In this document: positions 3,762 through 47,381 of the stretch, piece after piece
Layout: the number at the start of each line of letters is the position of its first letter
Numbering within the stretch: the stretch's first letter is position 1
Assembly: GCA_963681505.1 (NCBI GenBank)
Contig: OY811985.1
Span: 4,857,183-4,921,182, forward strand
Reading direction: 5' to 3'
Length of the DNA: 64,000 nt
From: Eunapius fragilis
Lineage: Eukaryota; Porifera; Demospongiae; Spongillida; Spongillidae
The notes under the pieces: generated by a model
What the model was told of the DNA's origin: nothing
Seen by the model: only the letters and a program-made list of their open reading frames with translations
Databases searched by the model: none
Program-made: the position numbers and the translations under genes

Positions 3762-3848
3762 CTTTCAGTGAGTGCTGCACTGTTACTAAGCGTAAGAGGT
3801 GAAGCTGTAACTAAACCATACGTCATATTTTCAAACCCATTTTCATGA
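3762..3848 (-). CDS. Gene A cytoplasmic tail exon 2
   Basis: An 87-nt phase 2-2 exon with a TGTGCAG acceptor and an AAAG/GTAGCC donor. It encodes HENGFENMTYGLVT followed by a Ser/Thr-rich stretch. It holds one tyrosine in a MTYGLV context, a possible SH2-type site. The Val-Thr and Leu-Asn-Ser pattern resembles the first tail exon of gene B (25120-25215), suggesting shared ancestry. Confidence 0.5.
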
Positions 3849-6800
3849 CTGCACAAGAAATAGGTTAGTGTTATTCAAGTGACATACAAATAGTCATCTA
3901 CCTTCCTTCTGCAGCCTCCACTTTTCCCCCTTCATTACCAACTGCGTATTGCCTAATAATAATAAAGCTCTTGTTTATAATGATCTGATGACTTAGAGTT
4001 AGGCATGCATACTTCACATACTTTGATTTTCTTCTCCTGATGAATATTATTACTGTTGTAATCAGCACCACAACAAGAAGTATGAACACAAACTCAGCAG
4101 CAAGAGAACCACCAAGGAGCAAAGGCAATGAAATAGTTGTGCTTGCCTGTGTGCTTACAGCAATGGCTGGGTGTGGGAAGAGGCTATAATAATCAACTGT
4201 TCAACCCAGATGAATGCAGGCACAAGGAATGTTCCATACTTGCACCCATTCCCAACCATCAAGTGGGAGTTACCTGGATTAATTATAGGAGAGTCAGCGC
4301 CTGATAATGACACATTGCCAGTGTAGGATTGCCCGTTTACACTGACTTCAGCTGTAACACTGAATCGATACGTCTGATAATACACTAACCCACCAATGAC
4401 CCCTAGTGTGACTCCAGCTGGAAAGAATTGGCTGTAGTCATTTAATTGCCTCGTTGTAATGCTTTGAGCTGATTGGTAGTATACCCGGTATCCCATAAGA
4501 GTCCCGTCTAAAGGGATAGAAACAGCCGTCCACGATACTTGCACTGCCGTCGCATTGAGAGCAAGCACAGCCACACCAGTGACGTTTGCTGCGGAACGAA
4601 GGTCAGATCAAATCTACCAGTAAAGCTTGATGTCAAGTCTGTACTCACGAACTGACGCCGTACTGGCTTGCAGCATAGTGGTCTGCCCAGCCCCAACTAA
4701 AGTCCAGGCTGCAAGGGTGAATGTATATGTTGTGGCCACATCTAGTCCAGTTTTGACTAAGTATGGTGCAGTCAGGTTGTTTGTTGTTGATGACCCTGTT
4801 GAGACCTGGTACAGTACTACCACTCCATTTGGTATCAGAGGAGGTTGCCACACCAACGAAAGAGTAGTGAAGCCCCTGTTTAGTAGTTTTAACTCGGTGA
4901 TGGGACCTGGTACTGCAATGAAATAAGCAAAGAAAAAAAATAACCTTATTTGCATTCCTGGATACAACACACAAAACAGCTTTCTACAAACGTTGTACAA
5001 ATTTCTAGTGTGGCCGTAAGCTGATGGTAGGTTTTTTAGATCAGAGCTAGAGTAAAGTTGTCTTTATTTCTCCCATAAAAATGCACGCCACAATGAATAT
5101 ATTTATTTTCCACATGCTGATAAATACAAATTAGGTAAAACTATCAAGCTATTAACATAAAGTACCTGATTCACTGGTTTGACTTGTGGCAATTATAGAA
5201 CGATTGCTTGCTCCCACTGATGTATTAGCAGTCACATAGCAACTATATTGTGTGTATGGGCTGAGTCCACTCAGTGTAGCAGCCAGTGTTGTCCCATTCA
5301 CTACAGATCTAATGGTGGGCACATTTGACCCAATCATTTGCTCTGGATATGATTGATTAGCAGAAGTGTTGCAGTACACAGAGTAACCAGTGATGATACC
5401 ATTCCTAGGTATGGGTACAGACCAACTAGCAGACAGCTGAGATGGTGAACCAGCAACGGGAGACAGAGAGAAGTTCTGAGGCAATGATGGAACTGAAAAT
5501 AGTGATATTATGCTAAAAGCACATGTCAGGATACCATGTTTAATAGATTTTAGATTTAAGTAATGGCAAAGAGGTTACCTGATTGAGCAGTAAGTATTGT
5601 AAATATAGCTGATGGATTTCCTTCTCCCACTGACGTATTAGCAGTCACATAACAACTATATTGTGTGTATGGGCTGAGTCCACTCAGTGTAGCAGCCAGT
5701 GTTGTCCCATTCACTACAGATCTAATGGTGGGCACATTTGGTCCAATAATTTGCTCTGGATATGATTGATTAGCAGAAGTGTTGCAGTACACAGTGTAAC
5801 CAGTGATGATACCATTCCTAGGTATGGGTACAGACCAACTAGCAGACAGCTGAGATGGTGAACCAGCAACAGGAGACAGAGAGAAGTTCTGAGGTGATGA
5901 TGGAACTGAAAAGAAATCATTCCTGATTTTAACCAGTTGTAACATGATATAATTTACTCTTAGGTACATGTGCAACTACTGTATTACATAATAGCATTTG
6001 TCATTTAAAGTGTGGATATAAGTTACCTGACTGAGCACTTAGAGTTGTGAGTATAGCTGAAGGGCTTCCCTGTCCCACTGATGTATTAGCAATCACATAA
6101 CAACTATATTGTGTGTATGGGCTGAGTCCACTCAGTGTAGCAGCCAGCGTTGTCCTATTCACTACAGATCTAATGGTGGGCACATTTGACCCAATCATTT
6201 GCTCTGGATACAATTGATTAGCAGAAGTGTTGCAGTACACAGAGTAACCAGTGATGATACCATTCATGGGTATGGGTACAGACCAACTAGCAGACAGCTG
6301 AGATGGTGAACCAGCAACAGGAGACAAAGAGAAGTTCTGAGGTGACGATGGAACTGAAAATAAATCATTCTCAAATTCAAACATAATACTGTTTACTCTT
6401 AGGTACATGTGCGACTACAGTATAACATAATAGCATTGTCATTTAAAGCGTGGATATAAGTTACCTGACTGAGCACTTAGAGTTGTGAGTATAGCTGAAG
6501 GGCTTCCCTCTCCCACTGACGTATTAGCAGTCACATAACAACTATATTGTGTGTATGGGCTGAGTCCACTCAGTGTAGCAGCCAGTGTTGTCCTATTCAC
6601 TACAGATCTAATGGTGGGCACATTTGATCCAATCATTTGCTCTGGATAAGATTGATTAGCAGAAGTGTTGCAGTACACAGAGTAACCAGTGATGATACCA
6701 TTCCTGGGTATGGGTACAGACCAACTAGCAGACAGCTGAGATGGTGAACCAGCAACGGGAGACAGAGAGAAGTTCTGAGGCGATGATGGAACTGAAAATA

Positions 6801-9800
6801 GTGATATTATGCTAAAAGCACATGTCAGGATGGCATGTTTAATAGATTTTGAATTTAAGTAATGGCAAAGAGGTTACCTGATTGAGCAGTAAGTATAGTA
6901 AATATAGCTGATGGATTTCCTTCTCCCACTGACGTATTAGCAGTCAAATAACAACTATATTGTGTGTATGGGCCGAGTCCACTCAGTGTAGCAGCCAGTG
7001 TTGTCCCACTCACTACAGATCTAATGATGGGTAGATTCGGTCCAATCATTTGCTCTGGATATGATTGATTAGCAGAAGTGTTGCAGTACACAGAGTAACC
7101 AGTGATGATACCATTCCTAGATATGGGTACAGACCAACTAGCAGACAGCTGAGATGGTGAACCAGCAACAGGAGACAGAGAGAAGTTCTGAGGCGATGTG
7201 GGAACTGAAAATAGATCATTCATGATTGTAATCAGTTGGAACATGATATTATATCCTCTTAGGTGATATGGAACTGAAAATGAATATTAATAGTGATATT
7301 ATACTAAAAGCAGATGTTGGGATAGCATGTTTAATTGATTTTAGATTTAAGCAATGGCATAACAGTCTAACAGGTTACCTGATTGAGCTGTAGATATCAT
7401 GAATACAGCTGATGGATTTCCTTCTCCCACTGATGTATTAGCAGTCACATAACAACTATATTGTGTGTATGGGCTGAGTCCACTCAGTGTAGCAGCCAGT
7501 GTTGTCCCATTCACTACAGATCTAATGGTGGGCACATTTGGTCCAATCATTTGCTCTGGATATGATTGATTAGCAGAAGTGTTGCAGTACACAGAGTAAC
7601 CAGTGATGATACCATTCCTAGGTATGGGTACAGACCAACTAACAGACAGTTGAGGTGGTGAACCAGCAACGGGAGACAGAGAGAAGTTCTGAGGCGATGA
7701 TGGAACTGAAAATAAATATTAATAGTGATATTATACTAAAAGCAGATGTTAGGATAGCATGTTTAATAGATTTTGAATTTAAGTAATGGCATAACAGCCT
7801 AACAGGTTACCTGATTGAGCAGTAAGTATTGTAAATACAGCTGATGGACTTCCCTCTCCCACTGACGTATTAGCAGTCACATAACAACTATATTGTGTGT
7901 ATGGGCTGAGTCCACTCAGTGTAGCAATCAGTGTTGTCCCATTCACTACAGATCTAATGGTGGGCACATTTGATCCAATCATTTGCTCTGGATATGATTG
8001 AATAGCAGAAGTGTTGCAGTACACAGAGTAACCATTGATAATACCATTCCTAGGTATGGGTACAGACCAACTAGCAGACAGCTGAGATGGTGAACCAGCA
8101 ACAGAAGACAGAGAGAAGTTCTGAGGTGATGACGGAACTGAAAATAGTGATATTATGCTAAAAGCACGTGTCAGGATAGCATGTTTAATAGATTTTGAAT
8201 TTAAGTAATGGCAAAGAGGTTACCTGATTGAGTAGTAAGTATTGTAAATATAGCTGATGGATTTCCTTCTCCCACTGATGTATTAGCAGTCACATAACAA
8301 CTATATTGTGTGTATGGGCTGAGTCCACTCAGTGTAGCAGCCAGTGTTGTCCCATTCACTACAGATCTAATGGTGGGCACATTTGATCCAATCATTTGCT
8401 CTGGATATGATTGATTAGCAGAAGTGTTGCAGTACACAGAGTAACCAGTGATGATACCATTCCTAGATATGGGTACAGACCAACTAGCAGACAGCTGAGA
8501 TGGTGAACCAGCAACGGGAGACAGAGAGAAGTTCTGAGGCGATGATGGAACTGAAAATAGTGATATTATGCTAAAAGCACATGTCAGGATAGCATGTTTA
8601 ATAGATTTTGGATTTAAGTAATGGCAAAGAGGTTACCTGATTGAGCAGTAAGTATTGTAAATATAGCAGATGGATTTCCTTCTCCCACTGATGTAGTAGC
8701 AGTCACATAACAACTATATTGTGTGTATGGGCTGAGTCCACTCAGTGTAGCAGCCAGTGTTGTCCCATTCACTACAGATCTAATGGTGGGCACATTTGGT
8801 CCAATCATTTGCTCTGGATATGATTGATTAGCAGAAGTGTTGCAGTACACAGAGTAACCAGTGATGATACCATTCCTAGGTATGGGTACAGACCAACTAG
8901 CAGACAGCTGAGATGGTGAACCAGCAACAGGAGACAGAGAGAAGTTCTGAGGCCATGATGGAACTGAAAATAAATATTAATAGTGATATTATACTAAAAG
9001 CAGATGTTAGGATAGCATGTTTTATAGATTTTGAATTTAAGTAGTGGTATAACAGCCTAACAGATTACCTGATTGAGCAGTAAGTATTGTAAATACAGCT
9101 GATGGATTTCCTTCTCCCACTGACGTATTAGCAGTCACATAACAACTATATTGTGTGTATGGGCTGAGTCCACTCAGTGTAGCAGCCAGTGTTGTCCCAT
9201 TCACTACAGATCTAATGGTGGGCACATTTGATCCAATCATTTGCTCTGGATATGATTGATTAGCAGAAGTGTTGCAGTACAGAGAGTACCCAGTGATGAT
9301 ACCATTCCTAGATATGGGTACAGACCAACTAGCAGACAGCTGAGATGGTGAACCAGCAACAGGAGACAGTGAGAAGTTCTGAGGTGATGATGGAACTGAA
9401 AATAAATCATTCTTGATTTTAATCAGTTGTAACATGATATAATTTACTCTTAGGTACATGTGCGACTACACTATAACATAATAGCATTGACATTTAAGCA
9501 TGGATATAAGTTACCTGACTGAGCACTTAGAGTTGTGAGTATAGCTGAAGAGCTTCCCTGTCCCACTGATGTATTAGCAGTCACATAACAACTATATTGT
9601 GTGTATGGGCTTAGTCCACTCAGTGTAGCAGCCTGTGTTGTCCCATTCACTACAGATCTAATGGTGGGCACATTTGATCCAATTATTTGCTCTGGATATG
9701 ATTGATTAGCAGAAGTGTTGCAGTACACAGAGTAACCAGTGATGATACCATTCCTAGGTATGGGTACAGACCAACTAGCAGACAGCTGAGATGGTGAACC

Positions 9801-12800
9801 AGCAACAGGAGACAGAGAGAAGTTCTGAGGTGATGATGGAACTGAAAAGTAATCATTCCTGATTTTAATCAGTTGTAACATGATATAATTTACTCTTAGC
9901 TACATGTGCGACTACAGTATAACATAATAGCATTGACACTTAAAGCGTGGATATAAGTTACCTGACTGAGCACTTAGAGTTGTGAGTATAGCTGAAGGGC
10001 TTCCCTGTCCCACTGATGTATTAGCAGTCACATAACAACTATATTGTGTGTATGGGCTGAGTCCACTCAGTGTAGCAGCCAGTGTTGTCCCATTCACTAC
10101 AGATCTAATGGTGGGCACATTTGATCCAATCATTTGCTCTGGATATGATTGATTAGCAGAAGTGTTGCAGTACGCAGAGTAACCAGTGATGATACCATTC
10201 CTAGGTATGGGTACAGACCAACTAGCAGACAGCTGAGATGGTGAACCAGCAACAGGAGACAGAGAGAAGTTCTGAGGTGATGATGGAACTGAAAAGAAAT
10301 CATTCCTGATTTTAACCAGTTGTAACATGATATAATTTACTCTTAGGTACATGTGCGACTACAGTATAACATAATAGCATTGACATTTAAAGCGTGGATA
10401 TAAGTTACCTGACTGAGCACTTAGAGTTGTGAGTATAGCTGAAGGGCTTCCCTGTCCCACTGATGTATTAGCAGTCACATAACAACTATATTGTGTGTAT
10501 GGGCTGAGTCCACTCAGTGTAGCAATCAGTGTTGTTCCATTCACTACAGATCTAATGGTGGGCACATTTGATCCAATCCTTTGCTCTGGATATGATTGAT
10601 TAGCAGAAGTGTTGCAGTACACAGAGTAACCAGTGATGATACCATTCCTAGGTACGGGTACAGACCAACTAGCAGACAGCTGAGATGGTGAACCAGCAAC
10701 AGGAGACAGAGAGAAGTTCTGAGGTGATGATGGAACTGAAAAGAAATCATTCCTGATTTTAACCAGTTGTAACATGATATAATTTACTCTTAGGTACATG
10801 TGTGACTACAGTATAAGATAATAGCATTGACATTTAAAGCGTGGATATAAGTTACCTGACTGAGTACTTAGAGTTGTGAGTATAGCTGAAGGGCTTCCCT
10901 GTCCCACTGATGTATTAGCAGTCACATAACAACTATATTGTGTGTATGGGCTGAGTCCACTCAGTGTAGCAGCCAGTGTTGTCCCATTCACTACAGATCT
11001 AATGGTGGGCACATTTGATCCAATCACTTGCTCTGGATATGATTGATTAGCAGAAGTGTTGCAGTACACAGAGTAACCAGTGATGATACCATTCCTGGGT
11101 ATGGGTACAGACCAACTAGCAGACAGCTGAGATGGTGAACCAGCAACAGGAGACAGAGAGAAGTTCTGAGGTGATGATGGAACTGAAAAGAAATCATTCC
11201 TGATTTTAACCAGTTGTAACATGATATAATTTACTCTTAGGTACATGTGCGACTACAGTATAACATAATAGCATTGACATTTAAAGCGTGGATATAAGTT
11301 ACCTGACTGAGTACTTAGAGTTGTGAGTATAGCTGAAGGGCTTCCCTGTCCCACTGATGTATTAGTAGTCACATAACAACTATATTGTGTGTATGGGTTG
11401 AGTCCACTCAGTGTAGCAGCCAGTGTTGTCCCATTCACTACAGATCTAATGGTGGGCACATTTGATCCAATCACTTGCTCTGGATACGATTGATTAGCAG
11501 AAGTGTTGCAGTACACAGAGTAACCAGTGATGATACCATTCCTAGGTATGGGTACAGACCAACTAGCAGACAGCTGAGATGGTGAACCAGCAACGGGAGA
11601 CAGAGAGAAGTTCTGAGGTGATGATGGAACTGAAAATAGTGATATTATGCTAAAAGCACATGTCAGGATAGCATGTTTAATAGATTTTGAATTTCAGTAA
11701 TGGCAAAGAGGTTACCTGATTGAGCAGTAAGTATTGTAAATATAGCTGATGGATTTCCTTCTCCCACTGACGTATTAGCAGTCACGTAACAACTATATTT
11801 CGTGTATGGGCTGAGTCCATTCAGTGTAGCAGCCAGTGTTGTCCCATTCACTACAGATCTAATGGTGGGCACATTTGGTCCAATCATTTGCTCTGGATAT
11901 GATTGATTAGCAGAAGTGTTGCAGTACACAGAGTAACCAGTGATGATACCATTCCTAGGTATGGGTACAGACCAACTAGCAGACAGCTGAGATGGTGAAC
12001 CAGCAACAGGAGACAGAGAGAAGTTCTGAGGCGATGAGGGAACTGTAAATAAATCATTCCTGATTTTAATCAGTTGTAACGTGATATAATTTACTCTTAG
12101 GTACATGTGTGACTACAGTATAACATAATAGCATTGACATTTAAAGCGTGGATATAAGTTACCTGACTGAGCACTTAGAGTTGTGAGTATAGCTGAAGGG
12201 CTTCCCTGTCCCACTGATGTATTAGCAGTCACATAACAACTATATTGTGTGTATGGGCTGAGTCCACTCAGTGTTGCAGCCAGTGTTGTCCCATTCACTA
12301 CAGATCTAATAGTGGGCACATTTGATCCAATCATTTGCTCTGGATATGATTGATTAGCAGAAGTGTTGCAGTACACAGAGTAACCAGTGATGATACCATT
12401 CCTAGGTATGGGTACAGACCAACTAGCAGACAGCTGAGATGGTGAACCAGCAACAGGAGACAGAGAGAAGTTCTGAGGCGATGAGGGAACTGAAAATAGA
12501 TCATTCATGATTCTAATCAGTTGGAACATGATATTATTTACTCTTAGGTGATGATGGAACTGAAAATGAATATTAATAGTGATATTATACTAAAAGCAGA
12601 TGTTAGGATAGCATGTTTAATAGATTTTGAATTTAAGTAATGGTATAACAGCCTAACAGATTACCTGATTGAGCAGTAAGTATTGTAAATACAGCTGATG
12701 GATTTCCTTCTCCCACTGATGTATTAGCAGTCACATAACAATTGTATAGTGTGTATGGGCTGAGACCACTCAGTGTAGCAGCCAGTGTTGTCCCACTCAC

Positions 12801-14380
12801 TATAGATCTAATGGTGGGCACATTTGGTCCAATCATTTGCTCTGGATATGATTGATTAGCAGAAGTGTTGCAGTACACAGAGTAACCAGTGATGATACCA
12901 TTCCTAGGTATTGGTACAGACCAACTAGCAGACAGCTGAGATGGTGAACCAGCAACAGGAGACAGAGAGAAGTTCTGAGGTGATGATGGAACTGAAAATA
13001 AATAATTCTTTTGATTCTAATCAATGGGAACATGATATTATTTACTCTGAGATACATATATGTGAGCATAAGCATTCAGTGTCCTTGTAGTCTACAGTAT
13101 TACATAATAACATTTCTATTTAAAGCATGGGAACGCGAAGTACATGGCTAAGAATTGTGATTAGAGTAGTTTAAACTTTAAGCGTACTTACATTGTTGGA
13201 GTAACATCTAATACTATAATTTCCATCGTACGTACGTACGTACGTCCGTACGTACGTACGTCCGCGTAACTCATTTATATACTCGGCCTAGCGCCTATTG
13301 GTTGCTAGGTATGTACGCGTACCTAGCTACCAATAGAAACGACCACCTCCCACACAAAAGGCGGTCGCAATGACAGCTGGTTTCCACTTCACATTTAATA
13401 TCTAAATTTTTTTTCAATATTTCTTGAATTCAAAGTGGGCGGAGAACTGCATAAGTACCGAAAGAATAAAAGCAACGCTATTGTGGTTCGCTCTCAAGTC
13501 TCATCGAACAGGCCGAGAACATGTAGTTACTATCTGAAATTGCGCGGGCATGTTATAGAGGCTGCGTAGTAACCGTATGTTAGAACAGGTGATAGATTAT
13601 ATATGCAACATTTGGTAAAACAGCCGGTAAAAAAAAAAAAAAAAGAAGCTAGGAGGTAGACCAACTGTTCATCTGGCAAATGAATAGCGAGACGAATAAC
13701 AGCGAGACGAATAATCAACCCGTGATTTTTCACGGGGACACGCTAGTTTATATATATTAATGATTTTCTTTTTTTAAAACATGAAAAATGCGTTGCTCAA
13801 TGTTACCTGATTGAGGTGTTTGCTCAGTAAGTATATTTGAAGGATTTCCTTCTCCCACTGACGTATTAGCAGTCACATAACAACTATATTGTGTGTATGG
13901 GTTGAGTCCACTCAGTGTAGCAGCCAATGTCGTCCCATTCACTACAGATCTAATGGTGGGCACATTTGGTCCAATCACTTGCTCTGGATATGATTGAGCA
14001 TAAGATGTGTTGCAATACACAGTGTATGCTGTAATCGTTTGATTGATATCTGGTTCTTCCCATGATATAAGGAGTTGAGTTGGAAGATCAGAAACAGTAG
14101 AAACCGTAAGGTTTATAGGTGATGGGATTGCTGTATCAAAATAGAGGGAAAGACATTGTCATATATCCCACATGGCGTTTACTACAGTGTCGCAGGGTTA
14201 TATGCAGCGTGACTCTCAGTCCTCAAAAGGTGTGTAAGTGTAATGGGATTGCCCACGTCTCATTAAATTAATGCGTATGAAGATAAATAACTTACAATAC
14301 TGTGCTTCAACAGTGATGATCTGAAGTTCTATCCAGGAATAAATATAAGGATGTGTCATAAGTACAGTTATTAGGCACAT
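3762..14380 (-). CDS. FN3-repeat transmembrane receptor, gene A (21 FN3 domains)
   Basis: Predicted type I membrane receptor. In order 5' to 3': candidate start exon 14296-14380; FN3 exon 13807-14130; eighteen near-identical 327-bp FN3 exons (first 12665-12991, last 5166-5492); two divergent FN3 exons 4649-4912 and 4274-4588; transmembrane exon 4022-4166; tail exons 3902-3952 and 3762-3848. All junctions use AG acceptors and GT donors, and phases fit throughout. Each FN3 shows the GLSPYTQYSCYV strand-F signature and a conserved Trp near residue 23. The ectodomain would be about 2300 residues. The 3' end beyond 3762 is unresolved. The tail differs from that of B and C. Ligand and function are unknown; adhesion or self-recognition is an inference. 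Confidence 0.75.
3902..3952 (-). CDS. Gene A cytoplasmic tail exon 1
   Basis: A 51-nt phase 2-2 exon (KQYAVGNEGGKVEAAEG) between a TTATTAG acceptor and an AAG/GTAGAT donor. It joins in frame to the transmembrane exon. Very small; called on phase and splice consensus only. Confidence 0.4.
4022..4166 (-). CDS. Gene A transmembrane exon
   Basis: It encodes a short juxtamembrane stretch, then LLLGGSLAAEFVFILLVVVL and further hydrophobic residues, then a basic stop-transfer (RRRKSK). The 145-nt exon enters in phase 1 after a CACACCCAG acceptor and leaves in phase 2 at AAA/GTATGT. The GGSLAAEFV motif aligns with AGSLVAEFV in genes B and C, which identifies all three as one family. Confidence 0.75.
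4274..4588 (-). CDS. Gene A membrane-proximal divergent FN3 exon
   Basis: A 315-nt phase 1-1 exon encoding one FN3 domain (TAVQVSWTAVSIPLDGTLMG early, strands F-G near AEVSVNGQSYTGNVSL). It is the orthologue by position of 27694-27990 in B and 41701-41997 in C, sharing the SIP-DGTL-GY-VYY pattern. It differs strongly from the homogenised repeats. Confidence 0.75.
4649..4912 (-). CDS. Gene A second membrane-proximal FN3 exon
   Basis: A 264-nt phase 1-1 exon for one FN3 domain. It contains WQPPLIPNGVV and a strand-F segment YTFTLAAWTLVGAGQ. Gene B and C counterparts are also exactly 264 nt and share PGP, WQPPL-PNGVV-YQV and AWT-G-GQ. It does not use the repeat-unit sequence, so it escaped homogenisation. 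Confidence 0.75.
5166..12991 (-). repeat. Array of 18 homogenised FN3 exons, gene A
   Basis: Eighteen exons, all exactly 327 bp and phase 1-1: 5166-5492, 5579-5905, 6027-6353, 6465-6791, 6878-7204, 7379-7705, 7811-8137, 8224-8550, 8637-8963, 9069-9395, 9515-9841, 9962-10288, 10409-10735, 10856-11182, 11303-11629, 11716-12042, 12163-12489, 12665-12991. Each codes one FN3 of 109 residues beginning (V)PSSPQNFSLSPVAGSPSQ and ending near the G strand with LTAQS or LSAQS. Introns of about 86-175 bp are also near-identical. Sequons NFS, NTS, NQS, NGT and NTS and two cysteines (VYCNTS, YSCYV) recur in nearly every unit. No stops or frameshifts were seen. The unit nearest the membrane (5166-5492) has a divergent C-terminus. 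Confidence 0.9.
13207..13746. mobile_element. Non-autonomous Helitron-like element
   Basis: A 540-bp insertion in the gene A intron. It begins TC directly after a host A and ends CTAG directly before a host T. A short hairpin (CCCGTG/CACGGG, loop ATTTTT) sits just upstream of the 3' CTAG. There are no terminal inverted repeats and no target duplication. All of these are Helitron hallmarks. The paralogous intron of gene B (around 34498-34506) lacks the insert and gives the empty site. No RepHel protein is encoded. The element carries an (ACGT)n run and an internal imperfect hairpin near 13295-13335. Confidence 0.7.
13227..13263. repeat. (ACGT)n simple repeat
   Basis: CGTA/ACGT tandem repeats with two C interruptions, inside the Helitron-like element. 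Self-complementary, so able to form cruciform structures. Confidence 0.85.
13807..14130 (-). CDS. Gene A N-terminal FN3 exon
   Basis: A 324-nt phase 1-1 exon. Its first half is divergent (IPSPINLTVSTVSDLPTQLL, WEEPDINQTITAYTVYC). Its second half (PEQVIGPNVPTIRSVVNGTT and GLNPYTQYSCYV) matches the repeat consensus. The gene B counterpart 34554-34877 is also 324 nt. This suggests gene conversion has overwritten the second half of an older first FN3. Confidence 0.75.
14296..14380 (-). CDS. Gene A candidate start exon
   Basis: ATG at 14380 opens 28 codons (MCLITVLMTHPYIYSW...) and ends at ATT/GTAAGT in phase 1, as the next FN3 exon requires. The gene B counterpart (35044-35128) is conserved in length, frame and donor. 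The N-terminus is hydrophobic but a weak signal peptide. The frame stays open further upstream, so the true start or an extra exon may lie higher. Confidence 0.4.
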
Positions 14381-15444: not shown

Positions 15445-15452
15445 CTATCCAC

Positions 15453-16183: not shown

Positions 16184-16191
16184 CTATCCAC

Positions 16192-23902: not shown

Positions 23903-23904
23903 TA

Positions 23905-24121: not shown

Positions 24122-24297
24122 TAGTGCTAGAAAAGGGAACCATTTAATAATTAAATCTAATATATAGTGTGACTGGTACATCCAAGGCAGAAGAATTGTA
24201 TAGCGTAGTAGGACGACGGAAAATTGAGTAGACGCATGGCGAAAACTAAAACAGCAAGGAAGTTGACTCATTTAGCCAAATCGTAGAGTATATAAGC

Positions 24298-26930: not shown

Positions 26931-26977
<47 letters not shown>

Positions 26978-36466: not shown

Positions 36467-37320
36467 AAGAGGAGTTCGTTCTTCGAAAAGCGGGGGAGTG
36501 GGGGGGGTGCTGTATACTACAGGTCAATACCCATAAGGGTCTGTACAGGTATACACGCATACCTTTTGGTGTGGTATCGGCTCCGGCTTTGTTTCAGAAA
36601 ACCATGAATGTTATTCTTCAGGGCATGAAACACGTTATGTGTTACATTGATGACATTCTGGTAACCGGTTCAACTGAAAAGGAGCATTTTATCCAGTTAG
36701 AGGAGGTTTTGAAGCATTTACAACATCATGGTCTTAAGGTTAAAAGGATAAATGTGCCCTATTTCAAGATTCTGTTCAGTATCTTGGGCATAAAATTGAT
36801 GCCTCTGGAATCCATACCACAGATAGTAAGGTTGAGGCAGTAAAAAACGCTCCTGCACCTAAAAATGTCCAAGAATTGAGGTCGTTTCTGGGATTGTTGC
36901 ATTATTATGGAAGGTTTATTCAGCAATTATCGACATTATTACAGCCACTGAATGAACTCTTGAAGAGTAATAGAAGATGGAAATGGACTTCAGAGTGCAT
37001 TTGTTATAGCAAAGGAACGTTTGGTGTCTGCTCCAGTACTTGCACATTATGATCCAAGCTTACCATTAAAACTTGCTGGTGATGCTTCCGCTTATAGTAT
37101 CGGGGCAGTAATATCTCACACTTACCCAGATGGAGAGGAAAGTCCCATAGCTTTCGTTTCTCGGACACTTTCTGCAGCTGAACTTAGCTATTCTCAAATT
37201 GAAAAGGAATCCTTATCTCTAGTATATGGTGTAAAGAAATTCCCCCAATACTTGTATGGTTGTAAGTTTGTCCTGGTTACTGATCATATAAGCCCCTGGT
37301 CGTTAGTTCGTACAGCATAA
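36467..37320 (+). mobile_element. Second, internally deleted copy of the Gypsy-like element
   Basis: It begins with the leader word AGAGGAGTTCGTTCTT (also near 20778), then jumps to the reverse transcriptase region (THKGLYRYTRIPFG, YIDD) and ends in RNase H at the same TDH breakpoint as copy 1. Gag, protease and the first half of reverse transcriptase are missing (about 1.6 kb). A frameshift near 36755 and others break it. The shared 3' breakpoint shows it was already truncated before the duplication. Confidence 0.85.
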
Positions 37321-37849
37321 TTCTCCTCAATAGAACTGAATGGATGAACCATGAAATAGCTTGAATTTAGACTATGAGACGGGATTTACAACCAATTTTT
37401 TGCTCCATCAAGCAATGAAGTTGGACTAGCCCCTCAATTCGTGCACGCACATTTGCTTCTAATATCATACACTATAAGTATCTATGGTGTATTTTCTATA
37501 TGCCTATATATTACTTGGGGGGGGGGGGGGGAACTCCATCTTCAATGAAATTGTATTATGCATGATGTAGTCATGCAGGGATAATGTATAATATAATTAT
37601 ATGGGATCGTGGCAACGAAAAGAAGCATAAAAATTTTCCAGGAAAGAGCATCAAAGTTGACGCGTGCAATTAAAATGTACGCATAATTAAAAAATTCAGG
37701 CCACTGTAACTCCATGATGTACAGACTAATTTCAAGTGCTAAAGAAAGAAGTTGTAGAGGACATAGCTGACTCTTTGAATATGAAATAATTTGAAAACTT
37801 GAAAAAATATGCACTAGGTTCCTTTTTGCAGCCACCGTATATAATTATA

Positions 37850-38062
37850 CAGGGTGATTGGAAAGTCGCGCAAAATGGTATATAACTCCAGAATTGAACA
37901 TTTAAATAAACTGAGCAGTAACTTTTAAAACCACTAATTAATAACTTTATATTAATTACTGGCATATTTTCTGGTTCAATAGCATAATTTTTCAATGCTC
38001 ATCTATGGAGTTTTACCAGTTCTACCAATTCAAAGATTTTGCACGACTTTCCAATCACACTG
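37850..38062. mobile_element. TA-inserting miniature element, family 1 (copy in C block)
   Basis: Same 213-bp length, ends and TA flanks as 23690-23902; duplicated passively with the block. Confidence 0.75.
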
Positions 38063-38064
38063 TA

Positions 38065-38265
38065 TATGGGACAGTGTCTATCAATGATTTTCCGTGAACT
38101 CCAAAGAGCTTCTATCAAATGGTCGTTACTCATCCAAAATTGGGAAGTTATTAAGCACTGAATTTATAATTAGCCATGCAAGCGTTACTTTTCTTCTTTT
38201 GCTTGTCCTGGAAATTTTTAAAAAGTGTCACAAAGGTGCATGATTATGCTGGACACTGTCCCATA
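38065..38265. mobile_element. Miniature element, family 2 (copy in C block)
   Basis: Inverted ends TATGGGACAGTGTC / GACACTGTCCCATA. About 20 bp shorter than the copy at 23905-24121 because of an internal deletion. Confidence 0.65.
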
Positions 38266-38453
38266 TATATATGTGCATAGTGCTAGAAAAGGGAACCATT
38301 TAATAATTAAATCTAATATATAGTGTGACTGGTACATCCAAGGCAGAAGAATTGTATAGCGTAGTAGGACGACGGAAAATTGAGTAGATGCATGGCGAAA
38401 TCTAAAACAGCAAGGAAGTTGACTCATTTAGCCAAATCATAGAGTATATAAAC

Positions 38454-38459
38454 TTTAAT
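38454..38459 (-). promoter_or_regulatory. Candidate polyadenylation signal of gene C
   Basis: ATTAAA on the minus strand about 58 nt past the gene C stop; conserved with gene B. Confidence 0.4.
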
Positions 38460-38516
38460 GTTTCGCCAAAGAATTATATGCATGTCGGACTATATATTAC
38501 AAGCAGAAAATGCAAG

Positions 38517-38607
38517 TCAATTTACAGAGTCATAAATACACTCGTTTTCGATATTATCATACACTTCAGAAGTTTCGTACGCCTCAGGTATCCCATCACT
38601 TAAGCCG
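38517..38607 (-). CDS. Gene C terminal tail exon
   Basis: Same ITAM-like YDNI/YDSV end as gene B. A 2-nt deletion next to the stop changes TAA to a read-on of one residue (YDSVN) and TGA. It is 91 nt against 88 in B. Confidence 0.7.
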
Positions 38608-41600
38608 CTAAAAAATGGAATGCATACATGATGCAGAATCCGAGTTATGCACGTGTATACGATACGAAAACATATACCTCTCTCCGAAGCACGCATCGCC
38701 GGCCGTATTACTTTCGTAGTAGGTATCTCCGACATTGTTTTCGCTATGACTATCTCCGACCGCATTACTTTCGTAATCCGTACCTCCGGCATTATTATCT
38801 GCATTACTTGCGTAGTACGTATCTCCATTACTTTCGGCAGGAAGAGCAGCATGTGCTTGACTTCCCGCTAGGTTGGGTCTAATTGCATGTGTATAATAAA
38901 GAATAAATTGTACACTGTATTTATAAGGAGTTCTCTTGTTTGTTATATAGTGTCCGCGTACCTGTCGGGTCTGTGATGTTCATTGTCGCATTCTTGATAC
39001 ATTTCTTCAGGCTCTACTTCTCCTACACCCTCTGGTATTTCCTCCAATGTCATTGTTTTATCGCTACTGTGCATCGTTATAAAAATTTTAGTAATAACTG
39101 CAATGATTGTGCGACCCACATACTTCAGACTTCGCATGGTGCGATCATTATACGGCGTTAGTGTAAGAACTGCTTCTTTGTACCTTCTTTCGGCGATGAC
39201 GGTTCCTGACAGGTTCCTGCCAGTTTATGCATGAAAATAAATACGTGTGTACACACATATATATACCTTTCAACCGTGCTGTCGTCGAATGCACTATTGA
39301 GCACAGTAACACCTTCCGAGGCACCGCCGTTCCTTCCTATGTTTCCTAGATCGTATTTCCGCCTGTGAATGGTCGAGAGCATGCACTGCATGTGAACAAA
39401 CACCGCGAGCCTTTTGCAGCACTTACTTCAGTTGCCTTTTCGTGACCAAAAAGACCATCAGTACAACTAACATCATGATGAGAAGAAGGACAACAAACTC
39501 CGCAACGAGGGAGCCGGCAAGCAAAACAGGCGACCCGACGTTTGCGGTGGTCGGACCGTTTATGACGGAGACGGCTTTGCCGGAAGGAATTGGATATACG
39601 ATTTTAAAACAACAATTGGTGTTAAGGCAGGTTACACCTCAATAAAGCCACTGAACAACCTAGAAAAAATGCATACTTCAGTGTCTTTTACTATACTCAT
39701 GCCCTGGCCAAAGTTTTGATACTTCTGAGTTATTTGATCAGTTGCAGATCAAATTAGTTAGTCGTTACCATAACGGCGTACGGTCATTGCTATTGTTTTT
39801 TGCAATCGATAGAAAATCCGGATCGTCAAAGCTCTTTTTTTCATCTAAACTGTATATATATAATTTAGATTTAAGATGTTGCTAATTGTGGGTGCTATTT
39901 TTCTTTCGCCACTACTGCAATTATGGCTTTTATAAACAAAAACAAGCAGAAATTTTGTAGTGCTGCTGATACTTCTTATGTTTAAGATGGCCTCATCGCG
40001 TAATGTTGAATCAAAGTCACATAATAATACAACGTAATAATTAGCTATTCATTGTACATAATAATAATTATATGGGACCCCTTCTGGATAGTTTTTCAAG
40101 TTTTCAAATTTTTGGATTTTCCGTGAACACCCAAGAGTTTCTATCAAATGGTCCTTACGCATCCAAAATTGGACTATCCATCATAAAGTTATAAGGTACT
40201 GAATTTATAATTAGCCATACATTTCAATGTGAGCGTTACTTTTCTTTTGCTTGTCCTGTAAATTTTGATAAGGGGTGATTTTGCTGGACATTGTTCCATA
40301 TCATGATAAAAATCTTAAAAGTGTCGTAAAAATTTTGTTCGCACCCGTATATCAATTCATGCGGTCATATTATCCCATCCAATGGTAATGTCGCGCGGGA
40401 CAACTATACAGAAGCTTTTTTGTTAGTACCGTTTGAAGAGACGATCGTGCATGGTAAAGTGGGATGCATTAATATTAGTACAGGACCATATCATGGCTTG
40501 ACGTAGGTTACTCCGACAGTGTTACATATGTACAGGATGGTTTTCTTAGCCAACCTTATCGATCCAATAAATAAAAACCTTCTTTTGCTTCTATGAATGT
40601 AATGTATGAATATGAATGTAATTGTACGCGCTGCTTCTCAGCCATTTAGATATCCTTGCATTACTGCTGGAGCTATATATGCCGTCTATATACACTTCGT
40701 GTATAGGGCTTAATGAAATAAATATTTACTTTTAAACAGATGGCAGAAGCAACCAACTACAGCTTTGGGAGTTATTGCCCAAACTATATGTACAAAAAGG
40801 GTGTGTGAAAACACTTCCTCAAATACACAACACATAAACACACAACTCACATGTGAGTTCAACACACACAAAAACAACACCAGTAAACAGGCACAGTCCT
40901 GTACAAAACGGTATCTGTTTTTGTGCAGCACTGTGTCTGCTTCCAAGTGTTGTTTTTGTGTGTACATGCATGTGTTGAACTCACATGTGAGTTGTGCGTG
41001 TACATGTGTACGTGTTTACATGTTGTGCCATTGTGTGTGTATGTGTGTGTACGTGTGTGTGTGTGTGTGTGTAATAAATAGAACACACGCGTAGGCCTAC
41101 GTGTATAGGCACAAAAAAGCATGCGCGCGCAGTCAAAAACGCGCACACATGCTCAAAACCAAGCGATATAACACACGCACACACACATGCACACACACAA
41201 ATCGATAGTATAAAATACATAGAAGGAATGAACAGAAAAGACCCATAGTATGGTACAACTTCAACGAATTTCATATAAATGTTCGCCATTTACGCGCGCA
41301 CCCCATATACGCTAGGCGCCCGACGATAAATTGTTTGAAACCTGCCTAAATACCCCTGAGTGATCGAGTCAAAATAATCAACCGCTGCAAAAAAAAAAAA
41401 AAAAAAATGCATTCGTATGTCAAAGTAATAATACCTCACGGCAGGTACTTTTTTCTTTGGGGGGGGGGGGGGGGGGGTCATTGGAACACTGCATGCAGTG
41501 CAGGTAGGGTTGTACTTTATAGCCGTGCAGTTTCTTTATCTCCCAAACTGGCTATAAAGTACATTTGATGCCTAGGGCTGCATGCAAATAATAATTTTAA

Positions 41601-44600
41601 AGGCTTTCCTACGCCACATCAGTTATAATGTGGGCCAGAATAGGTACATCAAATATTATTTTGGCAGAAGATTAATTATTGTAAACATTATGTCCGTTAC
41701 CTGAATTTTGTCCTGACAGGAGAAGTACTGTACCATTGTAAGTTTGTCCCATCACACTGACCACAGCTGCTACATTAAACTGATAATCCTGAGGATTCGG
41801 TGTGCTAATAACTCCTTGCGTGACATCTCCCATAAAGAACTGGCTATAAAGTACATTTGATTGTCTTTCTCTGCCTCTGGTCCAGTAATACACATTGTAC
41901 CCAACAAGGGTTCCATCTGAAGGAATTGAAATACCTACCCAAGACACTTGGACAGCAGTTGTATTGTAGGCTGTCACAGAGATCCCTGTCACATTGGCTG
42001 TGGATTAGAGTTGATAATATTATGAATCTTGAGCCATGCCATGCAGCACAAGTTCCATAATTTAAATGTGAGGGAGCCATATTATATAATTTGGACATTT
42101 TATGATAAAACCAGGTTTATGCTATTTTCAGTAAGACCACTATACAATAGCAAACCCACATATCTTCCGAGCTAAATGACCCATTGAATGGAATCTCTTC
42201 TATAATATAGATTGGCGTGAAACAACTGGGAAATTGGTCTGACTTTCATCATCTGCAATATCGATTAAGTAAAAATCAATGATCTGCAGATTCCGATAGC
42301 AACAGGACTGCTTGCAATTTTGACGCTGGAGAGATGATCAGACGCTCCTTCGTTCAGTTTTATGTGTTTTTAACCCTTAAGGTTACCAAACTTTGGTATG
42401 GACGAGTGTAAAGGGCTCATAGTGTGTAAAAATAGAATTAAATACAGAACTGATTTAGCAACGTGTCAAAGGACGTGGGTCGTTCAGCTTGGAGGATATA
42501 TGGGTTTGAAATTGATGCAGTTTTATTGAAAAAGCACAAGGTTGGTTTTGTCATAAAACATCCCATATATAATATAGTGCTGTATTAAGTCATACTCACG
42601 AATGAATGCAGTGCTGGCTTGTAGGGAAGCTGGCTGCCCCGGTCCTATTATAGTCCAAGCTCTAATGTTGAACAGGTACATTGTGGACACATTTAACCCA
42701 GACACTATTGCCAATTGTTCGGTCACGTTGGCTGTTGGCAACAATCCTGACATCACCTGGTACTGTGTCACTACTCCATTAGGCATTAGGGGTGGCTGCC
42801 ACTGAAGGGTAATAGTTGTGAAGGTCCTCTGAAGAATTTTTACACCTGCAACAGGCCCTGGAACTGAATTGAGAGATGTGCAGAGTCATAAGCATTTCAA
42901 ACCCTTTTAACATGTGACATCATGCATAACCTCAAGCCAAAGGTGCTGTTTAGCATTTCAACCTCTTTACGTATGGCATCATACACAGCATCAAGCCAAA
43001 GGTGCTAACCAGTCTATAGGGCCGGCTTGAAACCATTAGAGAGAGCAGATGCAAGGGTCAAATTCATACTTGATGAGATTTTTGAGGACAGTATGTTATA
43101 GTCACATGTAGTATGTGTAGCTGATGGTCGTGATTGCTTTCTGTTATTGGCACCAGGCAGTGATACATTAAGATGAACAGATATCAATGATATGCCAAGC
43201 AAAGATCGCGATGATTTAAAAAGAGATGAAAGACTTAAAACTAAGGCTGAAGGAACTGAAACTGGTTGCCATGAAAAAGTAGGAAGGATTGCGTTTGGTT
43301 TTTCAGCCAAACAGTGCTAGCCTGACAACATAGTCTGGAACTAGTGTAAATAGGTACTGAATGTAATGAAGCTTTGGAGCTTATACAAAACTCGTATACA
43401 TCTGATGATTCAATTTAAACTGTAGCATGAGACCAGAAATAAAATGCAGAAAATCCATCAGCTGCATGTGACAGGTTCTACACTACCAAGTCCTTCCAGT
43501 TTACAAAATTCAAAAGCAATTGTATTTACAAAAACTAAATGAAGATTTGATTGATACAAAAGAAGATCTCAAATGATCATGGCAAATATCCCTGTGGGAT
43601 GAAGATAAATTGTTTCTGTTGCAACTTACATTGATTGCTTGTAATGACATCAATCAATACATAATGTACATGTATGTGCATAACAAGCAATAATACAGGG
43701 TGTTTGCGAAAGAACGCAACGCTTTAAAACTCCTATAACTCAGGATTGAAATTAATTAACTGGTTGATTTCTTTAACATATGTTGCAGTAGGTAGGCAAA
43801 TACAAACAATCCAATTAGATTTCAATTATTTAGATTTCAATTATTGTAAGCGGTTAAGCAACTATCAAATCCCTCATAAATCAAAATATTCAAAGCCCTC
43901 TATTAACAAAGTTATTCAAGATTGTGGTTTGCGATAATTGATTTTAATAACTAATAATAAGTAACACACGATCTGGATATGCGGTGGAACAGTACTGATT
44001 TCAAGTTCCTAGGTTCAATAGTGAGTTATTAACATTTAAGACCATCATTTGCTTTAAAGTTATTAAGGTTGAAGCTGTTATGTGGTAAATATTTTTAATA
44101 ACCATCATAAATTATTCACGTATAAAATGAAGTACAAAACACTACTTGATTTGGTTATGGATTATTTAATGGTGCGTTATTAAAACTCAAAGTTAATAAA
44201 GACGTAGTGGTCATATAGCTTTTTCAAGTTTGATTTGTTGTTTTGAAAATTAAATAGTAAAACGCCAATCAAATTTCATACTTTTTCAAAGTCTATTCTA
44301 TTCTGCAGTTTATAAATCACGTTATTAATTAAAAGTTGTCGTACATTGTTTTGTCAGTTTAGTTAATTGCAAGCTATTTGATTTTATCTTTTGAACGGCT
44401 AAAGATAAACGAATTATAACAATGCAGTTCGTATTTGACTAAACGTGGTTATTGTAGGCTCATAAATTCATTTAGATTGACAATCCTATTAATGGATTAT
44501 ATTCATTTTAAAGCGTTGCGCTCTTTTGCAAAGACCCTGTATAAAAGTGTAGTCTGATGATGTGGAAGGTCACAAAGATGTGATAATGGAAACAAGTCTA

Positions 44601-47381
44601 TTAAGGACAGTTCTGGATGCCTTGCATGTGACAGGTGTGTATTGGCATGTTTTCTACGCCATTATCTATTAACTATTGACATGATATTGCCTAACACAGC
44701 ACACATATTCCAAAATGTCTTACCGTCCTGAGCTGTGGTGACATTGACAGGGTAGCTGGAGCCATCCATGTTTGTCCTGGCAGCCACAGTAATAAAATAC
44801 ATGGTGTATGGCCTCAGCGCAGTCAGGCTGACATTTGTGTTGGTGACACTGATGATGCTCCAAGGAGCACTGTTACCAGGTGTATAGCTGACTGTGTATC
44901 CCCTCAGTATCCCATTCAACCGAAGTGGCGGCTGCCATTTAGCAAAAATAGAAGTGGATGTGATATTGTATACTGTCACATTTATGGGTGCAGATGGTGC
45001 TGCAAAATGAGGAAACAACAGTTTTATTGTGCACTGAATAAAGAGCAAAACGTATATGCGAGTTTAACTAGAGCAACACAATAAAAGGTCTCAGAAATGC
45101 AGAAACCTCTTCCTTTATTTTTTTATAAGGCTATCGAAAATGATCCTATTCGTAAATCAACTGCTGTCTACAATTCAGCTGACTTGAGATCAAAAAACTA
45201 ATAACTAAATGGAACGTGACATTACTAAACCATGGATACCTGCTTCTCCGGTTTGCTTAGTGACAAGAGCTGAAGGGCTTCCCTGCCCCACTGAAGTATT
45301 AGCAGTCACATAACAACTATATTGTGTGTATGGGCTGAGTCCACTCAGTGTAGCAGCCAGTGTTGTCCCATTCACTACAGATCTAATGGTGGGCACATTT
45401 GGTCCAATCATTTGCTCTGGATATGATTGATTAGCAGAAGTGTTGCAGTACACAGAGTAACCAGTGATGATACCATTCCTAGGTATGGGTAAAGACCAAC
45501 TAGCAGACAGCTGAGATGGTGAACCAGCAACAGGAGACAGAGAGAAGTTCTGAGGTGATGATGGAACTGAAAATAGATATTAATAGTGATGTTATACTAA
45601 AAGCAGATGTCAGGATAGCATGTTTAATACATTTTGGATTTAAGCAATGGCATAACAGTCTAACAGGTTACCTGATTGAGCAGTAGATATCATGAATACA
45701 GCTGATGGATTTCCTTCTCCCACTGATGTATTAGCAGTCACATAACAACTATATTGTGTGTATGGGCTGAGTCCACTCAGTGTAGCAGCCAGTGTTGTCC
45801 CATTCACTACAGATCTAATGGTGGGCACATTTGATCCAATCATTTGCTCTGGATATGATTGATTAGCAGAAATGTTGCAGTACACAGAGTAACCAGTGAT
45901 GATACCATTCCTAGGTATGGGTACAGACCAACTAGCAGACAGCTGAGATGGTGAACCAGCAACAGGAGACAGAGAGAAGTTCTGAGATGACGATGAAGCT
46001 GTAGAGAATAGAAATGTATATTGTAGCACACAATGCAAATCTATGAGCCCATATTTAAACATGTCGTGCAATGGTGTGTAGCATTATCCAACTTACTCAC
46101 TATGGCTACACATGTCATTTTATTTATTAATAGATCCTGGAATGGGTTGATGACTTACTTGATTGGCCAGTTCTTGCAGTAAGTAATAATGAAGGGCTTC
46201 CCTGTCCCACTGATGTATTAGCAGTCACATAACAACTATATTGTGTGTATGGGCTGAGTCCATTCAGTGTAGCAGCCAGTGTTGTCCCATTCACTACAGA
46301 TCTAATGGTGGGCACATTTGATCCAATCATTTGCTCTGGATATGATTGATTAGCAGAAATGTTGCAGTACACAGAGTAACCAGTGATGATACCATTCCTA
46401 GGTATGGGTACAGACCAACTAGCAGACAGCTGAGATGGTGAACCAGCAACAGGAGACAGAGCGAAGTTCTGAGGTGATGATGGAACTGTAGAGTAGAAAT
46501 GTTCTGTATATAGCGCACAAATGCAAATCTATGAACCCATATTTAAACATGTCATGCAATGTGTAGCATTATCCAACTTACTCACTATGGCTACACATGT
46601 CATTTTATTTATTAATAGATCCTGGAATGGGTTGATGACTTACTTGATTGGCCAGTTCTTGCAGCAAATAATAATGAAGGGCTTCCCTGTCCCACTGATG
46701 TATTAGCAGTCACATAACAACTATATTGTGTGTATGGGCTGAGTCCATTCAGTGTAGCAGCCAGTGTTGTCCTATTCACTACAGATCTAATGGTGGGCAC
46801 ATTTGGTCCAATCATTTGCTCTGGATATGATTGATTAGCAGAAGTGTTGCAGTACACAGAGTAACCAGTGATGATACCAGTTGTACTATTTGATGCACAC
46901 CAAGTAGCAGTCAGTTGTGTTGGTGAACCAGAAATTTGTGACACAGTAAAGTTACAAGGTGCAGACGGAACTGTTTGAGACATAAAAATAAAAAGATGCA
47001 TGAAGAACATGCATATTTTCCATGCATGTACAAAGTCATGGAGTTTCTTTTACACATGCCGCTAGAGAAGGGCCACTTATTATGCAATGTATACATTACT
47101 ATGTTCGTATCTTGATAGTCAACAGTTATTACGTATACTATGCAGCCTTGTCCATCATAGAAAGTTTACCATCTATCCTACACTGTACCTGATTGGGCTT
47201 CAGTCTCAATAATGAAATCTGGAACAAAAATAAAGATAAATGCACTCTAAATCTACACAGCCATGATAATACCAGCCACTATATTCAATTAATCCCATAC
47301 ACCACCTTTTAGTCCAAGTTTCATGGCCAGCAATTGCGGACATGAATTATTTGAATTCCGTAATACACGTAATAAAATCAT
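38517..47381 (-). CDS. FN3-repeat transmembrane receptor, gene C (7 FN3)
   Basis: Exons 5' to 3': candidate start 47306-47381; 30-nt exon 47189-47218; FN3 46644-46970, 46159-46485, 45672-45998, 45240-45566 (327 nt each); FN3 44724-44999, 42600-42863, 41701-41997; transmembrane 39427-39574; tail 39267-39362, 38962-39066, 38678-38878, 38517-38607 (TGA). Phases fit and the model totals 2892 nt (963 aa). From 45566 downward it is nearly identical to gene B, so it arose by a recent block duplication. The first FN3 (46644-46970) has its own first half (PSAPCNFTVSQISGSPTQLT). The start exon is speculative. Confidence 0.7.
38678..39362 (-). CDS. Gene C tail exons (three)
   Basis: Exons 39267-39362, 38962-39066 and 38678-38878 are the same lengths (96, 105, 201 nt) and phases as in gene B. 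The tyrosine repeats are kept. One visible change is SHSENN for SHSKNN in the repeat exon. Confidence 0.7.
39427..39574 (-). CDS. Gene C transmembrane exon
   Basis: A 148-nt exon, near-identical to gene B 25280-25427. The juxtamembrane region reads TKRQLK where B has TKKHLK. Confidence 0.75.
40070..40301. mobile_element. Miniature element, family 2 (intronic copy, gene C)
   Basis: Copy of 25955-26191 with the left inverted end partly deleted (GGGAC joined directly to CCCTTCTGG). Confidence 0.5.
41701..41997 (-). CDS. Gene C membrane-proximal FN3 exon
   Basis: A 297-nt phase 1-1 exon, near-identical to 27694-27990 (one visible Thr to Ala change in TTAVQVSW). Confidence 0.75.
42600..42863 (-). 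CDS. Gene C second membrane-proximal FN3 exon
   Basis: A 264-nt phase 1-1 exon, near-identical to 28610-28873. Confidence 0.75.
43696..44539. mobile_element. 844-bp TA-flanked DNA element (Tc1/mariner-like, non-autonomous)
   Basis: Inverted ends of about 34 bp: left CAGGGTGTTTGCGAAAG..., right (inverse) CAGGGTCTTTGCAAAAG..., both continuing to CGCAACGCTTTAAAA, with three mismatches. TA on both sides (43694-43695, 44540-44541). It sits in a gene C intron. The paralogous gene B intron (about 29711) has the empty site, so it inserted after the B/C duplication. It is AT-rich and no transposase is seen. Confidence 0.85.
44724..44999 (-). CDS. Gene C third membrane-proximal FN3 exon
   Basis: A 276-nt phase 1-1 exon, counterpart of 29909-30184. 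LNGILRGY for LNGILRRY and TVAARTNMDG for IVSARTNVDG are visible changes. Confidence 0.75.
45240..46970 (-). repeat. Array of 4 FN3 exons, gene C
   Basis: 327-nt exons 45240-45566, 45672-45998, 46159-46485 and 46644-46970. The first three start in the repeat consensus. The 5'-most one has a divergent first half and the standard second half. The two upstream units end in GQSS at CAATCAA/GTAAGT donors, while the others end at CAG/GTAAC or GCAG/GTATCC. Each unit keeps the Cys pair. Confidence 0.85.
47189..47218 (-). CDS. Gene C 30-nt linker exon
   Basis: A TTCCAG acceptor and an AATCAG/GTACAG donor enclose a phase 1-1 micro-exon coding FIIETEAQS. The last residues resemble the end of an FN3 repeat (TAQS). 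It fits the frame of the next FN3 exon. Confidence 0.45.

Follow-up and report, generated by a model that had tools for sequence, protein, structure and literature searches.

One kind of fibronectin type III rod may be coupled to several kinds of inner signal in the sponge Eunapius fragilis

The window analyzed here is a stretch of 64,000 nucleotides from chromosome C15 of the freshwater sponge Eunapius fragilis (C15:4857183-4921182; C1, C2, C6 and C10 denote other chromosomes of the species). It carries three neighboring genes, A, B, and C, all on the minus strand, which are best read as encoding single-pass receptors with a long rod of fibronectin type III (FN3) domains outside the cell and a tyrosine-motif tail inside it. 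A sequence-only reading of the window had described three such FN3-rod genes in tandem with about 21, 13, and 7 domains; all three are present, and the FN3 exon counts are exactly 21 in A, 13 in B, and 7 in C. Each of the 41 FN3 exons is preceded by AG and followed by GT, has phase 1-1 and a length divisible by three, and contains no stop codon (41/41 intact). The arrays appear in a tandem-repeat scan (TRF) as units of 413–485 bp. The Pfam fn3 profile matches two representative domains with E-values of 1.5e-26 and 2.1e-26 (92.8 and 92.4 bits, against a cut-off of 25 bits), and the repeat unit of genes A–C is a member of the fibronectin type III superfamily. The window contains zero N bases, and B and C are therefore not joined over a gap. 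The parts of the three genes are as follows, in window coordinates.

3108..4166, minus strand: gene A transmembrane exon (about 4166-4022) and seven tail exons (3952-3902, 3848-3762, 3710-3645, 3595-3506, 3455-3369, 3300-3268, 3204-3108) to the stop, from the open reading of eight joined exons; the open-reading test began at 4183, and the phase-1 acceptor at 4166 was picked by eye
4274..4912, minus strand: two membrane-proximal divergent FN3 exons of gene A (4912-4649, 4588-4274), from exon reading
5166..12991, minus strand: homogeneous FN3 array of gene A, 18 exons, from tandem-repeat and exon scans
13807..14130, minus strand: first FN3 exon of gene A with a divergent N-terminal half, common to gene B, from DNA alignment and exon reading
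14296..14380, minus strand: tentative start exon of gene A, with ATG, frame, and donor kept in gene B at 35128-35044; read by eye, weak signal peptide
24370..25427, minus strand: gene B transmembrane exon (25427-25280) and five tail exons with GDTYYESN-like repeats; six joined exons, open, with AG..GT internal borders
27694..30184, minus strand: three membrane-proximal FN3 exons of gene B (30184-29909, 28873-28610, 27990-27694), from exon reading
30440..34877, minus strand: FN3 array of gene B, 10 exons, from exon reading
35044..35128, minus strand: tentative start exon of gene B, within the block shared with A (92.2%, 1,210 bp); read by eye
38517..39574, minus strand: gene C transmembrane exon and five tail exons, open to the stop and near-identical to those of B
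41701..44999, minus strand: three membrane-proximal FN3 exons of gene C (44999-44724, 42863-42600, 41997-41701), from exon reading
45240..46970, minus strand: four array FN3 exons of gene C, from exon reading
47189..47381, minus strand: tentative start exons of gene C (47381-47306 and 47218-47189), unproven, with frame and phase read by eye

The rod of each gene is followed by a phase 1-to-2 transmembrane exon (GSL-x-AEFV) and by short tail exons that are open to a stop codon, located at about 3108 in A, 24370 in B, and 38517 in C. The transmembrane motif is AGSLVAEFV in B and C, in agreement with the AGSL-AEFV exon of the sequence-only reading, and GGSLAAEFV in A. The eight transmembrane and tail exons of gene A have AG acceptors throughout, and GT donors save for one GC donor. 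The third of these eight exons ends at position 3762, where the earlier reading placed the left edge of the family, and the tail of gene A has five more exons beyond it. The gene order proposed by that reading holds for the FN3 array, divergent FN3 exons, transmembrane exon, and tail; the first exons are weak, and no convincing signal peptide was seen by eye among the tentative first exons of A, B, and C.

When the whole genome is searched with the transmembrane exon of gene A, the matches below E 0.001 are only B, C, and the exon itself (eight matches at E ≤1), and a search with the tail of gene B finds only B and C (six matches, E ≤1). Tails A and B show a distant relationship, with an alignment score reached by 4 of 2,000 shuffles. 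Tyrosine followed by Asp or Glu is commoner than in shuffled sequences (p 0.02 in tail A and 0.006 in tail B), which bears out the signalling-type tail suggested previously. The tails of A, B, and C may be phosphorylated.

Gene B is a chimera with an A-like 5′ end and a C-like 3′ end. Its 5′ side, comprising the first FN3 exon and the region upstream, matches gene A at 92.2% over 1,210 bp, and its 3′ side matches gene C in blocks of 93.7–96.5% identity. There is no 3′ DNA match between A and B at E 1e-3, and the only part of the 5′ regions of A and B that matches the 5′ region of C is an FN3 segment of less than 200 bp. Recombination inside the FN3 arrays, together with a duplication of the 3′ block before or after it, is a simple explanation of gene B. 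Among 1,500 coding bases compared, B and C have 15 differences, and the ratio of nonsynonymous to synonymous substitution rates (dN/dS) of 0.84 calculated from these is not informative. The duplicated block, which includes retroelement-like pieces, has two copies.

22437..30778, no strand assigned: copy 1, which holds the 3′ half of gene B; its main pieces are 93.7–96.5% identical to pieces of 36524-45578
36524..45578, no strand assigned: copy 2, which holds the 3′ half of gene C, from DNA alignment

Gag-pol-like frames with zinc-knuckle, protease, and reverse-transcriptase-like stretches (20845-23223 and 36394-37320, plus strand) lie between the receptor genes and partly in the duplicated block. 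From these motifs, we take them to be a retroelement of the long terminal repeat type.

The FN3 repeat also occurs outside the three genes, and a reading as an isolated family of three was rejected. A genome search with the repeat gives at least 150 matches, all of those listed at ≥69% identity, on C15, C10, C6, and C1. A 30-base pattern of the repeat (≤3 mismatches) has 119 occurrences genome-wide, and its reversed control has 0. The cluster extends to the left of the window, and the larger set continues on the other chromosomes, where the repeat recurs on putative adhesion G-protein-coupled receptors (GPCRs). The repeat of A–C belongs to a genome-wide superfamily that apparently sits on different signalling modules.

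Gene D continues the cluster about 11.6 kb to the left of the window (C15 ~4826649-4845622, minus strand). It has 35 FN3 exons detected with the hidden Markov model of the family, followed on the 3′ side by a transmembrane exon and then by a tyrosine phosphatase domain (Pfam E 2.8e-86 for the joined exon pieces). The phosphatase has the catalytic stretch SAGVGRTG, its closest solved chains are LAR and PTPRS, and the 14 kb scanned contain one set of protein tyrosine phosphatase (PTP) motifs. Gene D is probably a receptor tyrosine phosphatase (RPTP) with an FN3 rod, judging by the order and strand of its exons. On C10, the array at 5.575 Mb is followed downstream by a GPS domain (4.8e-14) and then by a 7tm_2 domain (1.7e-13), both detected in hand-joined pieces. 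The succession of GPS and 7tm_2 identifies the gene at C10:5.573-5.591 Mb as a predicted adhesion GPCR, whose GPS and 7tm_2 genome matches are within C10:5572477-5573299. A 7tm_2 domain is located 3′ of three of the three C10 and C6 arrays sampled, on the same strand and within about 3 kb. On C1 and at C6:7.957 Mb there is a fourth type, distinguished by a single transmembrane segment of another sort. The idea that the rod is also joined to receptor tyrosine kinases was rejected for now, since none of the kinase matches listed (E ≤1e-10, best candidates) lies in FN3 clusters.

The DNA of the rod is shared across these receptor classes. We removed from the exon set matches below 25 bits, those without both splice sites, and those with a stop, which left 183 exons, 85 of which score ≥118 and are called type-1. 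Within gene A, type-1 exons have a mean DNA identity of 0.922. The mean is 0.915 for comparisons of A with D and about 0.85 for comparisons of A with C10, in which individual pairs reach 0.979. Gene D has a higher-order FN3 unit in which the domain types follow the same order as in the C10 arrays. Twenty-four of its 35 exons match C10 or C6 exons at 91–96% DNA identity, and stretches of 5,340 and 5,305 bp align with a C10 array, exons and introns included, at 88% (88.4% for the 5,340 bp). No alignment at E 1e-50 reaches the transmembrane and phosphatase module of gene D. Among the 150 matches listed for the second FN3 type of gene D, the 47 with ≥70% identity belong to D (4), C10 (35), and C6 (8). 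The closest relatives of the phosphatase part are at C15:5.44 Mb and C1:13.62 Mb. The former is a partial copy of the juxtamembrane and phosphatase exons of D (C15:5440732-5442818, minus strand), which was discarded as evidence of an ectodomain swap in an intact receptor because no FN3 domain was found within 6 kb upstream of it (best scores 3.1 and 1.3 bits).

The starred branches in a tree of the 85 type-1 exons require at least four label changes for GPCRs, at least two for receptors with tyrosine-motif tails, and at least two for RPTPs, and therefore none of the three classes forms one clade. The exon nearest to a type-1 exon of C10 (n=27) from outside that chromosome belongs to A or B in 15 cases, to D in 4, and to C6 in 8, in a comparison set that is uneven, with 33 exons of A–C, 6 of D, and 6 of C6. 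Near-identity of ectodomains on different modules, as expected of paired receptors, applies to single exons and multi-exon units and does not extend to whole ectodomains.

These results suggest that one kind of outer rod is coupled to several kinds of inner signal in Eunapius fragilis. What we observe is the anatomy of the exons, exon and intron sequence common to several classes, the chimeric gene B, and the identities of the modules; the mechanism built on them is our hypothesis. The FN3 exons have symmetric phases (1-1) and are almost identical to one another, and the array may therefore work as a recombination cassette. Unequal exchange in the arrays would change the length of the rod and keep the frame intact, and array exchange would bring a 5′ head together with another 3′ signalling module, with the frame likewise unbroken. 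The same cassette would consequently be placed on three outputs: the tyrosine-motif tails of A, B, and C, the receptor tyrosine phosphatase D, and the adhesion GPCRs of C10 and C6. We consider it somewhat probable that recombination of the FN3 arrays in this way has put one type of ectodomain on several outputs, and these receptors may act as pairs.

In this hypothesis, genes A–D would be expressed, and the common ectodomain would bind the same ligand, or itself. Gene D would oppose the phosphorylation of the A, B, and C tails, and the set would work like paired receptors, in which the inhibitory side, otherwise served by tails with an immunoreceptor tyrosine-based inhibitory motif (ITIM), could fall to the catalytic phosphatase. 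More speculatively, the FN3 rods might be kept alike between genes and chromosomes as parts of a cross-class system, in which one cue or like-with-like contact would be converted to positive, negative, and G-protein outputs, and array recombination would supply new combinations. Such a system would be a forerunner or a parallel, in an animal group that was among the first to branch off, of paired immune receptors independent of immunoglobulin (Ig) domains, an extension of the hypothesis that we offer tentatively and regard as doubtful.

Several observations weigh against a shared cassette with paired outputs. Eleven of the 35 exons of gene D have weak or no counterparts in the C10 and C6 sample, as six match at only 65–76% and five do not match. 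The exon tree nevertheless groups its labels far more tightly than shuffles do. When compared at full length, the six type-1 exons of D are nearest to the genes with tyrosine-motif tails in two cases, to the GPCR cluster of C10 in two, and tied in two, and local homogenization with A–C is thus only partial; partial alignments had suggested that all six match A–C best, which we dropped after the full-length comparison. The connections of FN3 to phosphatase in gene D and of FN3 to seven-transmembrane domains are read from order and strand and are thereby probable rather than certain. Phosphatase exons also occur inside the C10 region at about 5.76–5.80 Mb, and not every C10 array need belong to a GPCR.

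The tails provide further points against it. A motif scan identified no strict immunoreceptor tyrosine-based activation motif (ITAM) in tails A or B, a single ITIM-like match at chance level in tail A (p 0.18), and none in B, and clear ITAM/ITIM signalling was rejected. The alignment of tails A and B has four Tyr-Tyr columns, a number matched by 306 of 2,000 shuffles, and conserved tyrosine positions were rejected as not significant. Because canonical ITIM and ITAM motifs of opposite sign were not found in tails A and B, the set of receptors is only likened to paired receptors: it may work like them, and we do not class it among the canonical ones.

The sequence of the rods hardly varies. The repeats of A–C are nearly invariant in residues, as judged from the 28 of 33 type-1 exons that were picked by a motif, inside which variation is hidden. 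Values of dN/dS between type-1 repeats of A–C range from 0.15 to 0.88 and are below 1 in every 12-codon window, a comparison between repeats and not between alleles; the value within A is 0.44, and that of D against D is 1.27, from six exons with few changes. By this between-repeat measure, no 12-codon window of the A–C ectodomain displays diversifying selection. The variation of A–C lies in domain number and not in surface sequence, so that the variable ectodomain of the sequence-only reading stands for the number of domains, which differs widely, and fails for their sequence. Concerted evolution of the rod, or a ligand that is conserved or like-with-like, accounts for this pattern better than a diversifying recognition surface does.

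Near-invariant repeats, dN/dS values below 1, and variation in copy number alone would also be expected if the FN3 arrays were adhesive or mechanical rods, acting as spacers or homophilic stalks, and their sharing between classes were a by-product of recombination with no common ligand or pairing. The closest solved FN3 sequences, those of LAR-type phosphatases, titin, Dscam, and fibronectin, point in the same direction. However, whole ordered multi-domain units are common to different classes together with their introns, which goes beyond a scattered conversion of repeats, and tails A and B are related to each other and have open reading frames. An explanation by rods alone is possible, and we lean against it.

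The sequence-only reading had likened the locus to recognition or allorecognition loci, and genes A, B, and C would then be polymorphic receptors of self and non-self. Part of this description holds, as the locus is a tandem cluster of apparent single-pass receptors with tyrosine tails, which differ in FN3 copy number and change by recombination, as seen in the chimeric gene B. A diversifying surface is not supported, and neither is a strict ITAM in tails A and B. Residue diversity between repeats is small, no A–C window has a dN/dS above 1, the higher value of D rests on six exons with few changes, and the repeat is common to GPCR and phosphatase genes located partly on other chromosomes; an allorecognition locus is therefore improbable.

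The assembly of Eunapius fragilis comprises 218.91 Mb in 23 chromosomes and a mitochondrion of 28.5 kb, and an alternate haplotype assembly exists (PMC12616128). That some of the genes are decaying copies, haplotypic duplicates, or assembly artefacts could be argued from the 15 coding differences between B and C, the mirror-image matches on C10 near 5.81–5.84 Mb, the partial phosphatase copy at C15:5.44 Mb with no FN3 within 6 kb, and the 802 gaps, 8 removed haplotypic duplications, and BUSCO completeness of 60% given in the genome note (PMC12616128), but is very improbable, since every one of the 41 FN3 exons is open, as are the tail exons of A, B, and C, B and C differ in their 5′ ends and FN3 numbers on one N-free stretch, and the window, the gene D stretch, and the C10, C6, and C1 pieces contain zero N bases.

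If FN3 arrays recombine and join one rod to several outputs, as we favor, this sponge would show that Ig domains are not needed for the paired-receptor principle to arise. To our knowledge, most known paired receptors come from vertebrate Ig families. Sponge recognition receptors are poorly known, and the ectodomains of the Hydractinia Alr receptors are of the Ig type. The genes described here are a concrete set in which polymorphism, expression, and common binding can be tested, and would be an example, in a living genome, of symmetric exons building new receptor combinations.

Paired receptors of vertebrate Ig families, such as CEACAM, Siglec-11/16, and CD300A/C, are described as kept alike by gene conversion (PMC2832619, PMC5701461, PMC12447643). 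They resemble the sponge set in their similar ectodomains, their different and potentially opposing cytoplasmic parts, and the exchange between copies. The paired receptors have Ig domains, whereas the sponge set has an FN3 array and outputs of whole classes (tyrosine tail, catalytic phosphatase, and seven-transmembrane GPCR), partly on different chromosomes, and the motif scan identified no canonical ITAM and ITIM of opposite sign in tails A and B. The Hydractinia Alr and Botryllus fuhc and fester receptors are, like A–C, clustered invertebrate receptors with tyrosine-motif tails (PMC12065747). They differ in their ectodomains, which are of the Ig or Sushi type, and in their canonical ITIM or hemITAM motifs and demonstrated polymorphism. 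Variation in gene content between haplotypes and paired receptors are discussed for Botryllus in the same source (PMC12065747).

Receptor tyrosine phosphatases of the R3 type, with an FN3 ectodomain and one PTP domain, are known in the sponge Amphimedon, where a similarity to PTPRF (LAR) is described (PMC5336234). Gene D appears alike in its 35 FN3 exons, one transmembrane exon, and one PTP domain nearest to LAR and PTPRS, in a search that covered FN3 domains, the transmembrane exon, and PTP motifs. It differs in that its FN3 unit is common to the GPCR-cluster arrays on C10 and C6, a sharing that is unreported in the available portion of PMC5336234. Amphimedon also has adhesion GPCRs with fn3 domains (PMC4302439), which resemble the putative receptors on C10 and C6 as demosponge GPS/7TM receptors with FN3 N-termini. 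The accessible text of PMC4302439 contains no mention of the same ectodomain on other classes or of repeat homogenization. Among the open-licence PMC papers listed for sponge FN3 receptors or invertebrate receptor pairing, as represented by titles and the beginnings of abstracts, we found none on one FN3 ectodomain common to sponge receptor classes. As far as these sources extend, FN3 adhesion GPCRs and FN3 receptor phosphatases were already known separately in Amphimedon, and the new element is one FN3 ectodomain type common to both.

Other regions of the genome are also rich in these domains. Tyrosine-phosphatase matches number 192 genome-wide, and C10 has a very large cluster of tyrosine-phosphatase exons at about 6.98–8.2 Mb with FN3 matches among them. 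Another FN3-rich region, at C2 15.45-17.13 Mb, contains many of the best fn3 matches. On C10 at about 5.806–5.842 Mb, FN3 matches form mirror-image pairs on opposite strands with equal or near-equal scores, which suggests an inverted duplication or a feature of the assembly. Within the window, long frames that look coiled-coil-like by eye are located at 52854-55412 and about 56400-61650 on the minus strand; an 853-residue frame of this kind has no Pfam match, and the frame at 61089-61652 has a sub-threshold Cep57-like match. A minisatellite of about 1 kb with short units (CATGTCCCCAT...) occupies positions 57696-58669.

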